DNA of 32,300 nt, taken from the NCBI GenBank assembly GCA_012960315.1, contig DUBN01000015.1, positions 3,652 through 35,951 on the forward strand, read 5' to 3'. Made by a program: the position numbers and the translations under genes. Below the pieces are notes generated by a model, which was not told the origin of the DNA, made no database searches, and saw only the letters and a program-made list of their open reading frames with translations. Of the stretch, positions 5,653-10,485 are shown piece after piece; the stretch's first letter is position 1, and the number at the start of each line of letters is the position of its first letter. This DNA is from Acidimicrobiia bacterium (GTDB lineage Bacteria > Actinomycetota > Acidimicrobiia > Acidimicrobiales > Poriferisodalaceae).

Positions 5653-7314
5653 CTAGAAATCTATCGGCGACTTTCTTCGGGACCTATTGGCGGTATCAAA
5701 AGAGAGCATTTCTGAAGTGATGACGGTTGCAGCTACCGCCACCGCTAGAACAACTGAGAGCGCCATTGCTTGACCGCGGAGCAGGTCGCCGGGTGTTCCT
5801 AAGAGTCTGAACACCGCCTGGGGTGCCGTGAGGGTGTCCGCCCGTCTCGGAAGAAAGGACGTCGCCCCGAATTCACCCAGGGAAATCGCGAACGCGAATC
5901 CGCCCGCGACGGTTATGCCGCGAGCGATGAGCGGCAAGTCGATTTGTCGACGGATCCGTGATGGAGAAGCACCGAGAAGGGCCGCTGCCTCTCGCAGAGA
6001 GGGATGAATTCTTCTCAGCATCGGGACCACCGAACGCACGACAAATGGCACGCCGACTAAGGCATGTGCGATGGGCACTATCCACCATCGAGTTCGCCAA
6101 TTGAACGGTGCTTCGTCTAACGCGATCAAGATTCCAAAGCCGACGGTGACAGCGGACACCCCAAGTGGAAGCATGGCACCGAGATCGAAAAATCGACTGA
6201 CTAATTTACGTCGAGTAACTATCGCCATCGCACAGATGACCCCGATGGTGAGCGCTACGACCATGGCAATCGCGGCGTACTTGATGGAGTTTCCTAGAGC
6301 GCTAATGGCGGTTGTGGGAAGTTGTGGCACTTTGTCAAAAAGTGCTCTGTAGTTCTGTAGGCCGTATCCCCCTCCGACCGATAACGATCTTTCGATCATC
6401 ACGAAAAGAGGGGTACCTAAGAAAACCAAGGTAAAGCAGGTGATTCCCGTTTGGGTTCTGGCCCTGAGTGGCGCGATGGGACTGCGTACCATTCGGGTCG
6501 TAACGCTGGTGCGTCGTTCGAGAGTCGAATTCACCAGAACAAGGACGAGAACCGCGACGACTTGGATCAGAGCCAAAGTTGCGCTGCTTGTCATATCTCC
6601 GCGAATAATTGCGTGTCGATATATTTCGGTTTCTACCGTGGCTTGACGAAGCCCTCCTAGGACCAACACGACACCAAAAGACGTGAATGAGAAAAGAAAT
6701 GTTATGACGGCCGCAGCAAGGATCGCTGGTTTAAGTCGCGGCCAGGTCACTCGCAAAAAAACTTGCGTACTGTTACTTCCAAGGGTCCGAGCTTGTTCTT
6801 CAAGTTGATGATCTAACCCCGACCAAAACACGCCGACAGTTCGCGCCACGACAGCAAAATTGAAGAAAGAGTGGGCGATGACAACTGCGATAGCAGTGTG
6901 GTTCAAGTTGGGTAGACCAAACGTTGAATTCATTCCTTCGAATAGCTCTTTGAATGCTCCGCCGACGACGACGGTTGGGAGCACGAAGGGAACGGTCACC
7001 AGTGCCTTGAACCACGCCCCCGTCCTTCCAGATGTTCGAGCTATCAAAGCGGCACCGGGAAGCGCCAAGATAAGAGTGAGTCCAGTGGATGCGGTTGCCT
7101 GCCATGCGGTGAACCAGAGCGCACCTCTTGCTCGCGGTGATTTGGCGATGTCTGCGAAGCCATCCCAACCCTGATTGAGTGCAGTAGCCAGAATCGTGAG
7201 GACGGGGTAGAAAAAGAAAAGCCCGAGGAACGCAACAGGGACAGCGGCGATAATGACGGTTGGTGCCCGTCGAACAATTTGGGGCCAGCCTGACATCTTC
7301 GAACCGTTAATCAA
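5653..7314 (-). CDS. thiP: Thiamine ABC transporter permease (ThiP-like)
   Basis: A 553-residue inner-membrane protein with about twelve hydrophobic segments arranged as two fused BPD-type permease domains. The EAA-type cytoplasmic loops can be seen in both halves (EEQARTLGSNSTQVFLRVTW and REAAALLGASPSRIRRQID). This double-permease layout is shared by ThiP and ferric-iron FbpB/AfuB transporters. The thiamine assignment comes from the adjacent thiB-like gene and the TPP riboswitch. The TTG start at 7314 overlaps the thiB stop by 8 bp and has GGTGG upstream; an ATG at 7296 is an alternative. No ATPase gene (thiQ) is present in the operon, so one must be supplied from elsewhere. Confidence 0.88.
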   Translation of the reverse strand: MINGSKMSGWPQIVRRAPTVIIAAVPVAFLGLFFFYPVLTILATALNQGWDGFADIAKSPRARGALWFTAWQATASTGLTLILALPGAALIARTSGRTGAWFKALVTVPFVLPTVVVGGAFKELFEGMNSTFGLPNLNHTAIAVVIAHSFFNFAVVARTVGVFWSGLDHQLEEQARTLGSNSTQVFLRVTWPRLKPAILAAAVITFLFSFTSFGVVLVLGGLRQATVETEIYRHAIIRGDMTSSATLALIQVVAVLVLVLVNSTLERRTSVTTRMVRSPIAPLRARTQTGITCFTLVFLGTPLFVMIERSLSVGGGYGLQNYRALFDKVPQLPTTAISALGNSIKYAAIAMVVALTIGVICAMAIVTRRKLVSRFFDLGAMLPLGVSAVTVGFGILIALDEAPFNWRTRWWIVPIAHALVGVPFVVRSVVPMLRRIHPSLREAAALLGASPSRIRRQIDLPLIARGITVAGGFAFAISLGEFGATSFLPRRADTLTAPQAVFRLLGTPGDLLRGQAMALSVVLAVAVAATVITSEMLSFDTANRSRRKSPIDF

Positions 7315-8359
7315 GAACGATTTCCACCCAACGTTCAGTCCATTCTTTTCGCTTGGCTTCTATTTCGGCGGGCTCAAGTGACAACGGGTTCTCGGTCAAC
7401 TGTGAATGTTCAATAAATTCGGCGGGGAGTTCCGCTTTTTGAGATACGGGATACATGAACATACTCATCGGAATCTCGTTCTGGAAGATGGGGCTCAAGA
7501 GGAAATCAATCAAACTTTGAGCCTCTTCTGGGTGCCTGGTTCCTGAAAGGATGCCGGCAAACTCGACCTGACGAAAACATGAATCGAGTAACACACCTGT
7601 GGGGGAAACATCGACTGGTGGGTCGGCGTAAATAACCTCAGCGACTGGGCTAGAGGCATACGAGACGACCATGGGGCGACTTCCCCCTCCAGCGATGAAC
7701 TCGCTGTAGTACGCGCTCTCCCAGCTGTTGGTGACGGCCACGTCGTTCGCCTTCAGTTGAGCCCAAAATTGTTCCCAATTGGGTGTTCCGGCGATGGTGG
7801 CTAACAGGAACGCCATACCTGGTGAGGACGTTTCCGGGTTCTGTACGACCAAGCTTCCAGCGAATTCTGGTAACACCAAATCCATTAAGGACGTCGGGGG
7901 TGGCCCGTTAAGAGCGTCAACCCAGTAATTGACGCAGACATCGCCGTAATCAATGGGGATCAGTCGGTGCGTTGAGTCGAGTTGAAATCGTTCGGGGACG
8001 TTGACGAGTTCAGATGTCTCATTCGGCTCGAGTATTGAACGGTCAAGGACGCGCTGCATGAACGTGTTGTCGATGCCGAAAATCACGTCACCCACCGGGT
8101 TGTCGGAACTCAATATTGTTTGGGCGACCAACGAACCAACGTCACCTGAGGTCAGCACTTCAACACGAATTCCTGTTTGTTCAAAGAACGCTTCGAAAAC
8201 TCCGTCTGAGATGGCGAAGGAGTCGTGAGTTACGAAGGTCAACACGACCGGTTCCGTATTTTTTGTAGCTTCGCTGGTCGTACCGGCTTCTGAGCTACAT
8301 GCGACAAGCACACCGGACGCTACGCATAGCGAAAACAACAGGGCACAAAGTCGTGACAT
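7307..8359 (-). CDS. thiB: Thiamine ABC transporter substrate-binding lipoprotein (ThiB-like)
   Basis: A 350-residue exported binding protein. The signal peptide ends in the lipobox LVAC with Cys21, so it should be lipid-anchored outside the membrane. The mature start VVLTFVTHDSFAIS and the later GDVIFGIDNTFMQRVLD closely parallel ThiB/TbpA (TxYTYDSF and DVVLGLDNN), and IDYGDVCVNYW is also typical. It captures thiamine, and possibly its phosphates, and delivers it to ThiP. The ATG at 8359 is preceded by GGAGG with a 5-nt spacer, and this ribosome site lies inside the TPP riboswitch. It is the first gene of the operon with thiP and folE. Confidence 0.93.
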   Translation of the reverse strand: MSRLCALLFSLCVASGVLVACSSEAGTTSEATKNTEPVVLTFVTHDSFAISDGVFEAFFEQTGIRVEVLTSGDVGSLVAQTILSSDNPVGDVIFGIDNTFMQRVLDRSILEPNETSELVNVPERFQLDSTHRLIPIDYGDVCVNYWVDALNGPPPTSLMDLVLPEFAGSLVVQNPETSSPGMAFLLATIAGTPNWEQFWAQLKANDVAVTNSWESAYYSEFIAGGGSRPMVVSYASSPVAEVIYADPPVDVSPTGVLLDSCFRQVEFAGILSGTRHPEEAQSLIDFLLSPIFQNEIPMSMFMYPVSQKAELPAEFIEHSQLTENPLSLEPAEIEAKRKEWTERWVEIVLD

Positions 8360-8360
8360 G

Positions 8361-8450
8361 GCTACCTCCGCTGGAATTACCCAGATCAGGTCATACGGGT
8401 CGCCAGCATGGGTATCTGGCCTCTCAGCCCAGTCGATCTGAGCTCCCCGG
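8361..8450 (-). promoter_or_regulatory. TPP riboswitch (THI element)
   Basis: The minus strand carries the conserved TPP aptamer blocks in order: GGGGAGCT near the 5' end, GGCTGAGAGG (CTGAGA at 8427-8422), ATACCC, then GACCCGTATGACCTGATCTGG and GTAATTCCAGCGGAGG. The last block normally reads GCGTAGGGA. Here it contains GGAGG (8369-8365), which is also the thiB Shine-Dalgarno sequence, 5 nt from the ATG. Ligand binding should therefore hide the ribosome site directly, making this a translational OFF switch. The operon encodes thiamine uptake plus FolE. The aptamer call is firm; the mechanism is inferred from the overlap. Confidence 0.95.
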
Positions 8451-8469
8451 ATTTCGGTTGTCAGCTTAG

Positions 8470-8543
8470 CGCCCCCGGCAGGACTCGAACCTGCAACCTT
8501 CGGGATAGAAGCCCGCTGCGCTGTCCAGTTGCGCCACGGAGGC
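8470..8543 (-). tRNA. tRNA-Arg (UCU)
   Basis: A cloverleaf on the minus strand: acceptor GCCTCCG/CGGGGGC with one G-U pair, D-arm GGCGCAACTGGACAGCGC, anticodon arm CGGGC-TTCTATC-CCG giving anticodon TCT, and T-arm GCAGGTTCGAGTCCTGC. The discriminator is G and no CCA is encoded. Confidence 0.94.
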
Positions 8544-8605: not shown

Positions 8606-9523
8606 TTATTTTGAGGGTCTTCGGTCCGGCCAACGAACCATTCCTGATTCAACACGGGGATCAGCTTGTTCATAGTCAGCATCATCGGGCCAAGCGATAC
8701 GCCCAGGTCCCTCGATGTCATACCTGATTCGAACCAGTTCGTCGTGTTCTTCGTTGTTGCCTTCAGCAGCTGATATTGCCTCAGCTGCGTTTTGATACCG
8801 GGACAGTCGATTCAGCATCGAGATGGTGGGTGTCATCATCAACATTTCATCGGACTCGTTGAGAGCGAGGGCGTCTGCTGGTCGGACCCATTCGTGATGT
8901 ACTGCTTCGTCGTCATCATGGAGGGGTTGCTGACCTTGTGGCATGGCGGTCACAAAGAATCGGGTGTCGTAGCGGCGAGGTGGACCCAACGGTGTTACCC
9001 ATCTGCTGACGTAGTGAACGCCTGAACCATCTAATACGAGATTCTGTTCTCGGACCATGGACACGAAGTCCACTTCGCCGGCATTCACGCCGGCTCGGTA
9101 CGTCCCAAATCGTTCCTCTGTGTCGCTCTGCGACAGATCCACTAATTCTTTCTCTCCTGGGGTGCGCGCCAACAAGATGCCTGCTTCTTCGAAGGTTTCG
9201 CGCAGAGCAGCCACCCAAAAAGCGACTCCACCTTTTTCGATTCCCAGGTTGTTGCTTGCTTCAGTATCGGTGAGACCTTCCACAACAGCGTCAGCTTCGG
9301 GCGTGCCGTCTTCAGGGTCGACCGCGCCTCCGGGAAACACCCACATGTCACCCACGAAAATTGATCTGGCGTTGCGTTTCAGCATGAGTACTTGAAGATC
9401 AGGACGGTCGTCGAGAATGAGAACCGTTGCTGCTAAGCGGATGACGATGGATTCGGGGTCGTAGTCGCCACCTGAACCTGGTGAGGAATGTCCACCCGAC
9501 GCAGTTTGTTCAGTTTGCGCCAT
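8606..9523 (-). CDS. NUDIX hydrolase, NUDT19-like
   Basis: A 305-residue Nudix protein. The first half of the Nudix box (FVGDMWVFPGGAVDPED) and the second half (ALRETFEEAGILL) are separated by an insertion of roughly 40 residues, the layout of the NUDT19/RP2 group, some of whose members cleave CoA and acyl-CoA. The N-terminal ~30 residues are low complexity. The ATG at 9523 was chosen because the stop of the upstream GrdB-family gene overlaps it (TGATG), implying translational coupling; a start at 9553 would run into that gene. The substrate cannot be read from sequence. The tight coupling to a selenoprotein candidate suggests a shared role. Confidence 0.88.
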   Translation of the reverse strand: MAQTEQTASGGHSSPGSGGDYDPESIVIRLAATVLILDDRPDLQVLMLKRNARSIFVGDMWVFPGGAVDPEDGTPEADAVVEGLTDTEASNNLGIEKGGVAFWVAALRETFEEAGILLARTPGEKELVDLSQSDTEERFGTYRAGVNAGEVDFVSMVREQNLVLDGSGVHYVSRWVTPLGPPRRYDTRFFVTAMPQGQQPLHDDDEAVHHEWVRPADALALNESDEMLMMTPTISMLNRLSRYQNAAEAISAAEGNNEEHDELVRIRYDIEGPGRIAWPDDADYEQADPRVESGMVRWPDRRPSK

Positions 9524-10485
9524 CAGTAGTCGATACCGGCACAGACCAGACATTCTTCGCTGTCATGGGTGAGCGCGGCGGCGGCGTGGTCATCTTGGTC
9601 CTGGTACTGAGGCGTCTCGTGTCGCGCAACTCGATCATCATCGTATTGCGATGATCCGCCTGCGGACTCGCTTGGTTCTACGAGAGCAAAGACTTTGTCT
9701 TTCCAGTCGTCGTTGTCTGACCACCGGTAGTCAAGATGGGCCATTGCTCCAGGTTCTGAGAGTGATTCAAACGCCGACAGAGTGTCGCGCATGATGGACG
9801 CGTTCAATTCCCGTTCGTTGGGGCGACCTGCGGTGTGACCTAGCGGATAGTCGAGGTAGACCGAGCGGGTCGGCCATGCGGATCGAGTGATGTCTCGGGC
9901 GCTGGACATCGACAACGTCGGAACGCCTGCTGCTTCAATGGCTCGTGCAATCAAACCCACGGTCTGATGGCAGACAGGTCAGACCGGTACGAGTAGTACG
10001 ACGTCAACTTCATCAGCAAGTACGCGGTCCACCAAGGCAGGGATGAGTTCTTCTACAACTCGTCTGGTGCTATAGATGCCCCCCATAAGGGTGTAGGCGT
10101 TGGGGCTGACGGATCCGAGCGCGTTTTCATCGATCATGGAGCGCAGTTGTTCGATCGGGAAGACGACGTTGATGTCTTTTCTGGCGTCGGTGAGGTCGTA
10201 CGCGAAATGGGTGGCTCGAAGATCGGAGGTGTCTACGTCTGTTGGGATCGCCCGGTAGCTAGTGTCGTCTTTGAAGTGGAAAGCAGTCTGACCCGCGACA
10301 TAAATACCACCGGTGCAGATAAGCCCAAGCTTCGACTCAGACAATGGTTTCGAGAGCGGAGCCCAATTCGGTGCATCTTCGCTTTCAAGCCAGCGATATT
10401 CGCCATATCCCAAACCGGAGTATTGGGCAGTGATCCGGGGGATGTAGTCAACCGGGGGTTGACGACGCTGTGGAGTGGTTGGCAT
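9523..10485 (-). CDS. GrdB-family selenoprotein, UGA = Sec169
   Basis: One 320-residue protein if the in-frame UGA at 9981-9979 is read as selenocysteine. The first 168 codons and the last 151 are in the same frame and both belong to the glycine/sarcosine/betaine/D-proline reductase selenoprotein B family. The upstream part shows HFAYDLTDARKDINVVFPI, MGGIYSTRR and VDVVLLVPV; the downstream part continues as PVCHQTVGLIARAIEAAGVPT. The UGA forms U-P-V-C where related proteins have CxxC, which is the catalytic redox site. A bSECIS-like hairpin follows. The last ~45 residues are an acidic tail ending in CLVC (Cys312, Cys315). The true reaction in this probably aerobic host is unknown; a redox role is inferred. 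It is coupled to the Nudix gene. Confidence 0.85.
9944..9961 (-). promoter_or_regulatory. Candidate bacterial SECIS hairpin (GrdB-family gene)
   Basis: Counting from the base after UGA, CGTG at +18 to +21 pairs with CACG at +32 to +35, closing a 10-nt loop that begins GG. This fits the published bSECIS rule (upper stem of at least 4 bp, loop of 3-14 nt with G in the first two positions, loop 16-37 nt from UGA). The stem is short, so the call leans on context. Confidence 0.55.

Follow-up and report, generated by a model that had tools for sequence, protein, structure and literature searches.

Two open reading frames lie end to end in one frame on the minus strand of a 32,300-nucleotide stretch of DNA from an Acidimicrobiia bacterium (contig DUBN01000015.1; the whole stretch is referred to below as the window), and under translation table 11 they are two separate open frames. 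An earlier note on this DNA had read them as the halves of one selenoprotein of the GrdB family, divided by a UGA codon for selenocysteine (Sec). The locus raises two questions: whether the gene is broken at this codon or is read through it, and, if it is read through, whether the family name tells what the protein does.

Direct reading of the frame bore out the proposed coordinates, 10485-9979 and 9978-9523 with the UGA at 9981-9979. The upstream part starts with ATG, encodes 168 amino acids and ends in this TGA; past codon 169 the same frame runs on to the terminal TGA at 9525-9523, for a total of 320 residues, with the sequence ...DVVLLVPVUPVCHQTVG... around Sec169. The features of the locus are collected in Table 1. 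The protein used as the query for profile, PDB and tblastn searches (P0001) carried one extra C-terminal residue, the terminal stop having been read as C.

Table 1. Features assigned at the locus, in coordinates of the window.
Feature	Position	Strand	Basis
PrdB-like selenoprotein gene (predicted)	9523..10485	-	320 codons + TGA stop, one in-frame UGA (Sec)
Predicted Sec codon, UGA 169 (U169-P-V-C172)	9979..9981	-	Site conservation and Sec machinery
Putative SECIS-like hairpin, 8-bp stem, 3-nt loop starting with G (9960-9958)	9950..9968	-	Conservation and fold
C-terminal CxxC tail (Cys312, Cys315), within ...HDSEECLVCAGIDY	9541..9552	-	53/54 complete UxxC/UxxX rows
Nudix hydrolase gene	8606..9523	-	Pfam NUDIX 48.5 bits (longer ORF 8606-9553); PDB 3qsj 61 bits

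The UGA proved to be conserved among relatives. By tblastn, a PrdB-like match was found in all 39 genomes of the family set, and every listed match that runs across residue 169 bears one TGA. Reading 33 loci in frame (30 of the family-set matches listed, plus L002-L004) revealed TGA in the corresponding motif of each; this motif was UPVCHQ in most, UPLDHQ in L045 and L046, UPVCTG in L003 and UPLCTR in L004. Another set, of 67 named loci, was obtained with two search patterns, one of them written with Cys at the Sec site. The codon was TGA in 58 and TGC in seven of its 65 readable loci, the remaining two being cut short (L160) or devoid of the motif (L164). Thus, Sec and Cys alternate at residue 169, and the earlier claim that relatives bear Cys where this protein has U-P-V-C holds for some of them. 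In a phylum sample, 50 of 296 genomes had a PrdB-like match at E <= 1e-20; five site-spanning matches were without an in-frame stop and two had an additional TAG or TAA. The 29 phylum-sample loci that were read (L069-L097) had TGA in 28 cases and TGC in one (L077). On viral contigs there were 47 pattern matches, none of which was confirmed.

Some loci vary at the position of the resolving Cys as well. In two from Actinomycetota (L079 and L081; genomes G119 and G152), TGA stands at both the Sec and the resolving-Cys positions (U-P-I-U) and the frame stays open for 102 codons beyond the second TGA, apparently a double-selenocysteine motif. L045, L046 and L153-L156 have U-P-L-D-H for U-P-V-C-H, with Sec kept and the resolving Cys replaced by Asp; the Cys form of this variant is seen in L157.

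The half of the gene downstream of the UGA is under purifying selection, as judged from dN/dS, which was 0.08-0.14 on the 3' side of the UGA and 0.05-0.13 on the 5' side in the computable pairs, with several values saturated; for the closest pair it was 0.117 after the UGA and 0.054 before it. The host genome (2.82 Mb in 91 contigs, 96.6% complete) also contains all four components of Sec decoding that the earlier note had singled out for a search. Its tRNA-Sec scored 65.1 bits, above the cut-off, and has the anticodon TCA (UCA). In profile searches, selA (395 bits) was found to adjoin selB (284 bits), and selD (370 bits) has a UGA of its own inside the motif SHGAGUACK. Three further PrdB-like genes of this genome contain one UGA each.

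The sequence that follows the UGA could fold into a SECIS-like hairpin, the stem of which starts 13 nt after the first base of the UGA. Of the 57 Sec loci, 42 can make all eight pairs; none of the seven Cys loci can, although they still make 5-7 pairs, and the loop opens with G in 54 of the 57 Sec loci; these counts omit L142 (an N in the sequence), which reads TGA and stays among the 58, as well as L160 and L164 (no motif). Pairing was found in 93.6% of the hairpin cells, as compared to at most 51.5% when the stem was slid by 1-3 positions. Relative to 2000 synonymous-codon shuffles within columns, in which relatedness is uncontrolled, paired cells were in excess (425 of 456, vs a shuffle mean of 410.2 and a maximum of 418). 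In a separate covariation test, cells with a change on both sides numbered 14, vs 3.1 in shuffles. Two of the five covariation measures did not exceed the shuffles, namely pairs with a change on both sides (3 vs 2.0) and further pair types (4 vs 4.0), neither of which is unusual. Folded singly, the window's own 42 nt gave -12.9 kcal/mol with a modest z of -1.49. Combined, the support for this candidate hairpin is good but not overwhelming.

Taken together, the comparisons show a UGA that would be decoded through SelA, SelB, SelD and tRNA-Sec, with a hairpin right after it, and the window gene is almost certainly an intact selenoprotein gene. The contrary reading is that of a broken gene, in which the TGA arose by nonsense mutation or assembly error or simply acts as an ordinary stop. 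It could cite the two separate open frames under table 11, but the identical TGA in many separate assemblies, the selection on the 3' half and the full Sec machinery refute it and leave it a negligible probability. Because the UGA is conserved, a pseudogene or a sequencing error is rejected, in agreement with the single 320-residue selenoprotein that the earlier note had proposed.

The second question turns on family membership. The best profile was that of PrdB, TIGR04483, which matched residues 39-257 over profile positions 18-236 of 238 (E 2e-47) with 161.7 bits, below the cut-off of 300 bits; two genuine PrdB, taken as controls from plasmids that carry prdA, scored 424.7 and 408.2 bits. 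Identity to the genuine proteins (from Terrisporobacter and from a Ligilactobacillus plasmid) is 31-32%, and the UxxC motif of PrdB is present in the window protein, in a core that reads LVPVUPVCHQ here vs LTAGUGTCHR there. A match to Pfam GRDB (PF07355; 29 bits, cut-off 22, profile positions 216-345 of 347) makes the protein a member of the superfamily. GrdB itself was considered and rejected: TIGR01918 scored 44.3 bits vs a cut-off of 65.45 and matched profile positions 220-421 of 431 only, leaving the N-terminal half of GrdB unmatched. The label of the earlier note is therefore sound at the level of the Pfam domain, but the protein is nearer to PrdB than to GrdB and falls below both family cut-offs.

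No pyruvoyl partner was detected. The pyruvoyl family PF09338 (PrdA/GrdE) had no match in the host genome or in any of the 39 family genomes, and TIGR04480 (PrdA) likewise had none in these 39. The control genomes of these searches gave no match, and controls were taken elsewhere: PF09338 matched in 13 of the 296 phylum genomes, one of which (G327) is also among the 50 with a PrdB-like match, and two genuine PrdA scored 80 and 94 bits with PF09338 and 976 and 928 bits with TIGR04480. Since the family genomes are drafts, 25 of the 39 being at least 90% complete and at most 5% contaminated, the absence of PrdA/GrdE is likely, not proven. Around the window gene no prd genes were found, whereas the two genuine prdB genes adjoin prdA. 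The searches thus show a PrdB-like protein in genomes with no PrdA/GrdE partner detected. With scores below the PrdB and GrdB cut-offs and the partner not found, the family name does not give the function.

Little is then left of the idea that this protein serves D-proline reductase as its PrdB subunit (or is a GrdB) and reduces D-proline together with a pyruvoyl subunit. The homology to TIGR04483, the shared UxxC and the identity to genuine PrdB all speak for it, yet it is largely refuted by the low score beside those of genuine PrdB, the two pyruvoyl profiles unmatched in all 39 family genomes, the lack of neighbouring prd genes and the altered core motif, and we regard it as very improbable. 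Judged by these comparisons, the window protein is very probably not a D-proline reductase.

The gene neighbourhood was less informative. The Nudix neighbour of the earlier note is real, its ATG (9523-9521) overlapping the selenoprotein stop as TGATG, and the two genes are likely translationally coupled. It is restricted to near relatives, though: it lies directly downstream in 16 of the 67 named loci by tblastn (L098-L112 and L120, with L101 cut by a contig end; ORF clustering gave 14 of 67), and identity within the set is highest in these 16. In the remaining 51 loci, of which some are short, tblastn gave no match to the Nudix gene at E <= 1e-5. Thus, the two genes form an operon only locally, among near relatives, and their pairing cannot be used to define the function. 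Neighbours elsewhere include photolyase, ScpA, a class I W/Y-type tRNA synthetase, amidase, MMPL and others, and clustering of the neighbourhoods of the 67 loci gave no partner that is constant across the clade. The Nudix protein had no match in NCBIfam. A TPP riboswitch (57.1 bits) and a tRNA-Arg, at 8346-8543 of the window, lie upstream of a gene for a solute-binding protein (7307-8359).

Other PrdB-like genes have surroundings of their own. The UGA-bearing paralogue B of the host genome (L052, 8537-9379 on contig 78) is surrounded by APH, ECH, zinc ADH, alpha/beta hydrolase, MaoC and acyl-CoA dehydrogenase domain genes. Cys-type PrdB-like genes in a Desulfobacteraceae MAG (L147) and a Burkholderiales MAG (L158) are near a CoA-transferase family III gene.

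These contexts bear on a further alternative, that CoA or acyl-CoA-linked compounds are the substrates, which the protein would cleave reductively or detoxify in concert with a CoA-type Nudix hydrolase. The overlap with the Nudix gene, the ECH, MaoC, acyl-CoA dehydrogenase and ADH genes beside paralogue B and the CoA-transferase III genes near the Cys relatives are consistent with it. Against it stand the Nudix adjacency in only 16 of 67 loci, the different neighbours elsewhere (photolyase, ScpA, W/Y-type tRNA synthetase, amidase) and the Nudix protein unmatched in NCBIfam, and we consider this alternative improbable.

A less expected feature, left unmentioned by the earlier note, is the C-terminal CxxC tail. 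We surveyed 66 rows with the core motif, including the window and omitting L160 and L164; 55 of them are UxxC, one with an unread last letter. Setting aside L152, which is cut by a contig end, there are 54 complete UxxC rows, of which 53 have a CxxC among their last 30 residues. The exception, and the only complete UxxC row of the 66 that has no tail CxxC, is L133 (6001-6918), with HxxR instead. The tail is absent from all 11 UxxD, CxxC and CxxD rows of the same set, from the two genuine PrdB, from the Sec-bearing paralogue group B (6 loci read) and from all 29 phylum loci read, 28 of which have TGA. L147, the only Cys row near the window's clade, is without CxxC, its placement in the tree being unsure (branch 1.52). 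In two gammaproteobacterial Sec rows (L148 and L151), the tail has a CxxC but differs in sequence. Tail-less Sec relatives exist, and Sec therefore does not require the tail; on the evidence of these rows, the tail is a trait of the window's clade and not of Sec use. Alignment A3 consisted of the window and 50 of the 67 loci, after rows with X and some others had been removed by hand.

An AlphaFold model built with 51 sequences had a pLDDT of 88.5 and a pTM of 0.90. In this predicted model, Sec169 lies between a strand (162-166) of an alpha/beta core and the beginning of a helix (170-185), a place where redox motifs are common. Residues 291-300 are modelled confidently (pLDDT 90), and the tail residues 311-320 have a mean pLDDT of 56. 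A PDB sequence search found nothing with the protein; with the profile there was a single match, to a designed protein (E 0.61). Foldseek, run with the model, had no hits at E <= 0.001. The best VIA-align Z was 7.5, a level that possibly reflects a common arrangement only. That no PDB relative was found does not imply a new fold.

Considering all of the above, the best reading as a whole, which we favour with some reserve, is a seleno-dithiol reductase that stands alone and may be recharged by its tail. The first part, that the protein works alone as a seleno-dithiol reductase, we infer and regard as fairly likely; the second, that the tail is the internal reductant, is tentative and less likely than not. 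In such a mechanism, Sec169 would attack a small electrophilic substrate, or the leaving group of one, and the intermediate would be resolved by Cys172 as a selenenyl-sulfide. The Cys312-x-x-Cys315 tail might then reduce the selenenyl-sulfide by dithiol exchange, and might in turn be reduced by a cellular thiol system, these last two steps being the weaker ones. Ribonucleotide reductase and thioredoxin reductase use their C-terminal cysteine tails for dithiol exchange of this kind.

The alternative that survives best differs from this only in the role of the tail. The protein would again be a stand-alone selenoprotein, but its CxxC would bind a metal, form a structural disulfide or dock a partner, while the selenenyl-sulfide would be recycled directly by external thiols, either thioredoxin-like or of low molecular weight. 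The existence of tail-less Sec relatives and the low confidence with which the end of the tail is modelled are in line with this alternative. It accounts less well for the occurrence of the tail only together with UxxC in the 66-row set and, as a weak point from a single row, for the lack of CxxC in L147, a Cys row that keeps the Q-Y-Q region. We judge it somewhat unlikely.

The host of this selenoprotein is a less expected one. The earlier note had called it a probably aerobic actinobacterium, an inference which gains from two observations: the nearest named relatives are MAGs labelled Acidimicrobiia/Acidimicrobiales, including the marine MedAcidi-G3, and the genome has two COX1-family genes (522 and 157 bits), on account of which we too call it probably aerobic. 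As far as the profile searches go, it is a PrdB-like gene without PrdA in a genome with haem-copper oxidases that is unusual here. A 2026 review states, in the passage cited, that selenoproteins are rarely retained by aerobic bacteria (PMC13188914). The surprise is tempered by a 2016 survey, which in its relevant passages describes Sec use in aerobes as well as anaerobes (PMC5029168).

Marine 'PrdB' selenoproteins with UxxC are themselves already known, having been in print since 2005, to go by the tables and descriptions of the surveys. In the Sargasso Sea data, 'proline reductase PrdB' with UxxC is listed as the third most abundant selenoprotein family, with 42 genes, Sec outnumbering Cys by 42 to 1, and its function is given as D-proline cleavage (PMC1088965). 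The Global Ocean Sampling (GOS) survey lists 'PrdB' among the most abundant selenoproteins, with 235 Sec and 110 Cys forms, under pfam07355 in its table (PMC2398784). The words actinobact and PrdA are absent from the main texts of both papers (PMC1088965, PMC2398784), and our literature search found no description of PrdB without PrdA.

In sum, a selenoprotein of a known kind is well supported here; it varies in a way specific to its clade, and its functional label cannot be kept. In the marine surveys of 2005 and 2008, 'PrdB' ranks with the most numerous selenoprotein families, and its link to D-proline cleavage was made by homology. If the partner subunit is truly missing, the D-proline function would be wrong for an abundant set of ocean proteins. 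Automatic gene calling can also break such selenoprotein genes into two fragments and so miss them. One could imagine, though we regard it as doubtful, that the marine 'proline reductases' of oxic waters do not reduce proline at all and make up a separate family of one-subunit seleno-reductases without a pyruvoyl partner. On this view, a CxxC arm acquired at the C terminus in the Acidimicrobiia/K189A clade would reload the selenenyl-sulfide at the active site, shuttling electrons within the protein as ribonucleotide reductase does.

Compared to known systems, the window protein has the homologous core and the UxxC motif in common with PrdB (TIGR04483), but it has 320 residues instead of 241, with an N-terminal addition and the C-terminal CxxC tail, and it carries UPVCHQ for UGTCHR in genomes where PrdA was not found. 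With GrdB (TIGR01918, PF07355) it shares the C-terminal Pfam-domain region; it does not match the N-terminal half, and a GrdE-type partner was not found. Proteins encoded on Haematobacter and Roseomonas plasmids, labelled by PGAP as 'glycine/sarcosine/betaine reductase selenoprotein B family protein', are PrdB-like with no prdA annotated within 4 kb on either side, as here; at 30-31% identity, they differ in having Cys in place of Sec and no CxxC tail. On the Haematobacter plasmid (L173, 1153-4888), a gene for an aminotransferase class III-fold protein of about 900 residues stands directly 5' of the Cys-type PrdB-like gene. Although a C-terminal tail, such as the window's clade has, goes unmentioned in the tables and descriptions of the Sargasso Sea and GOS surveys, the marine 'PrdB' described there resemble the window protein in their UxxC motif, their marine origin and the preponderance of Sec over Cys.
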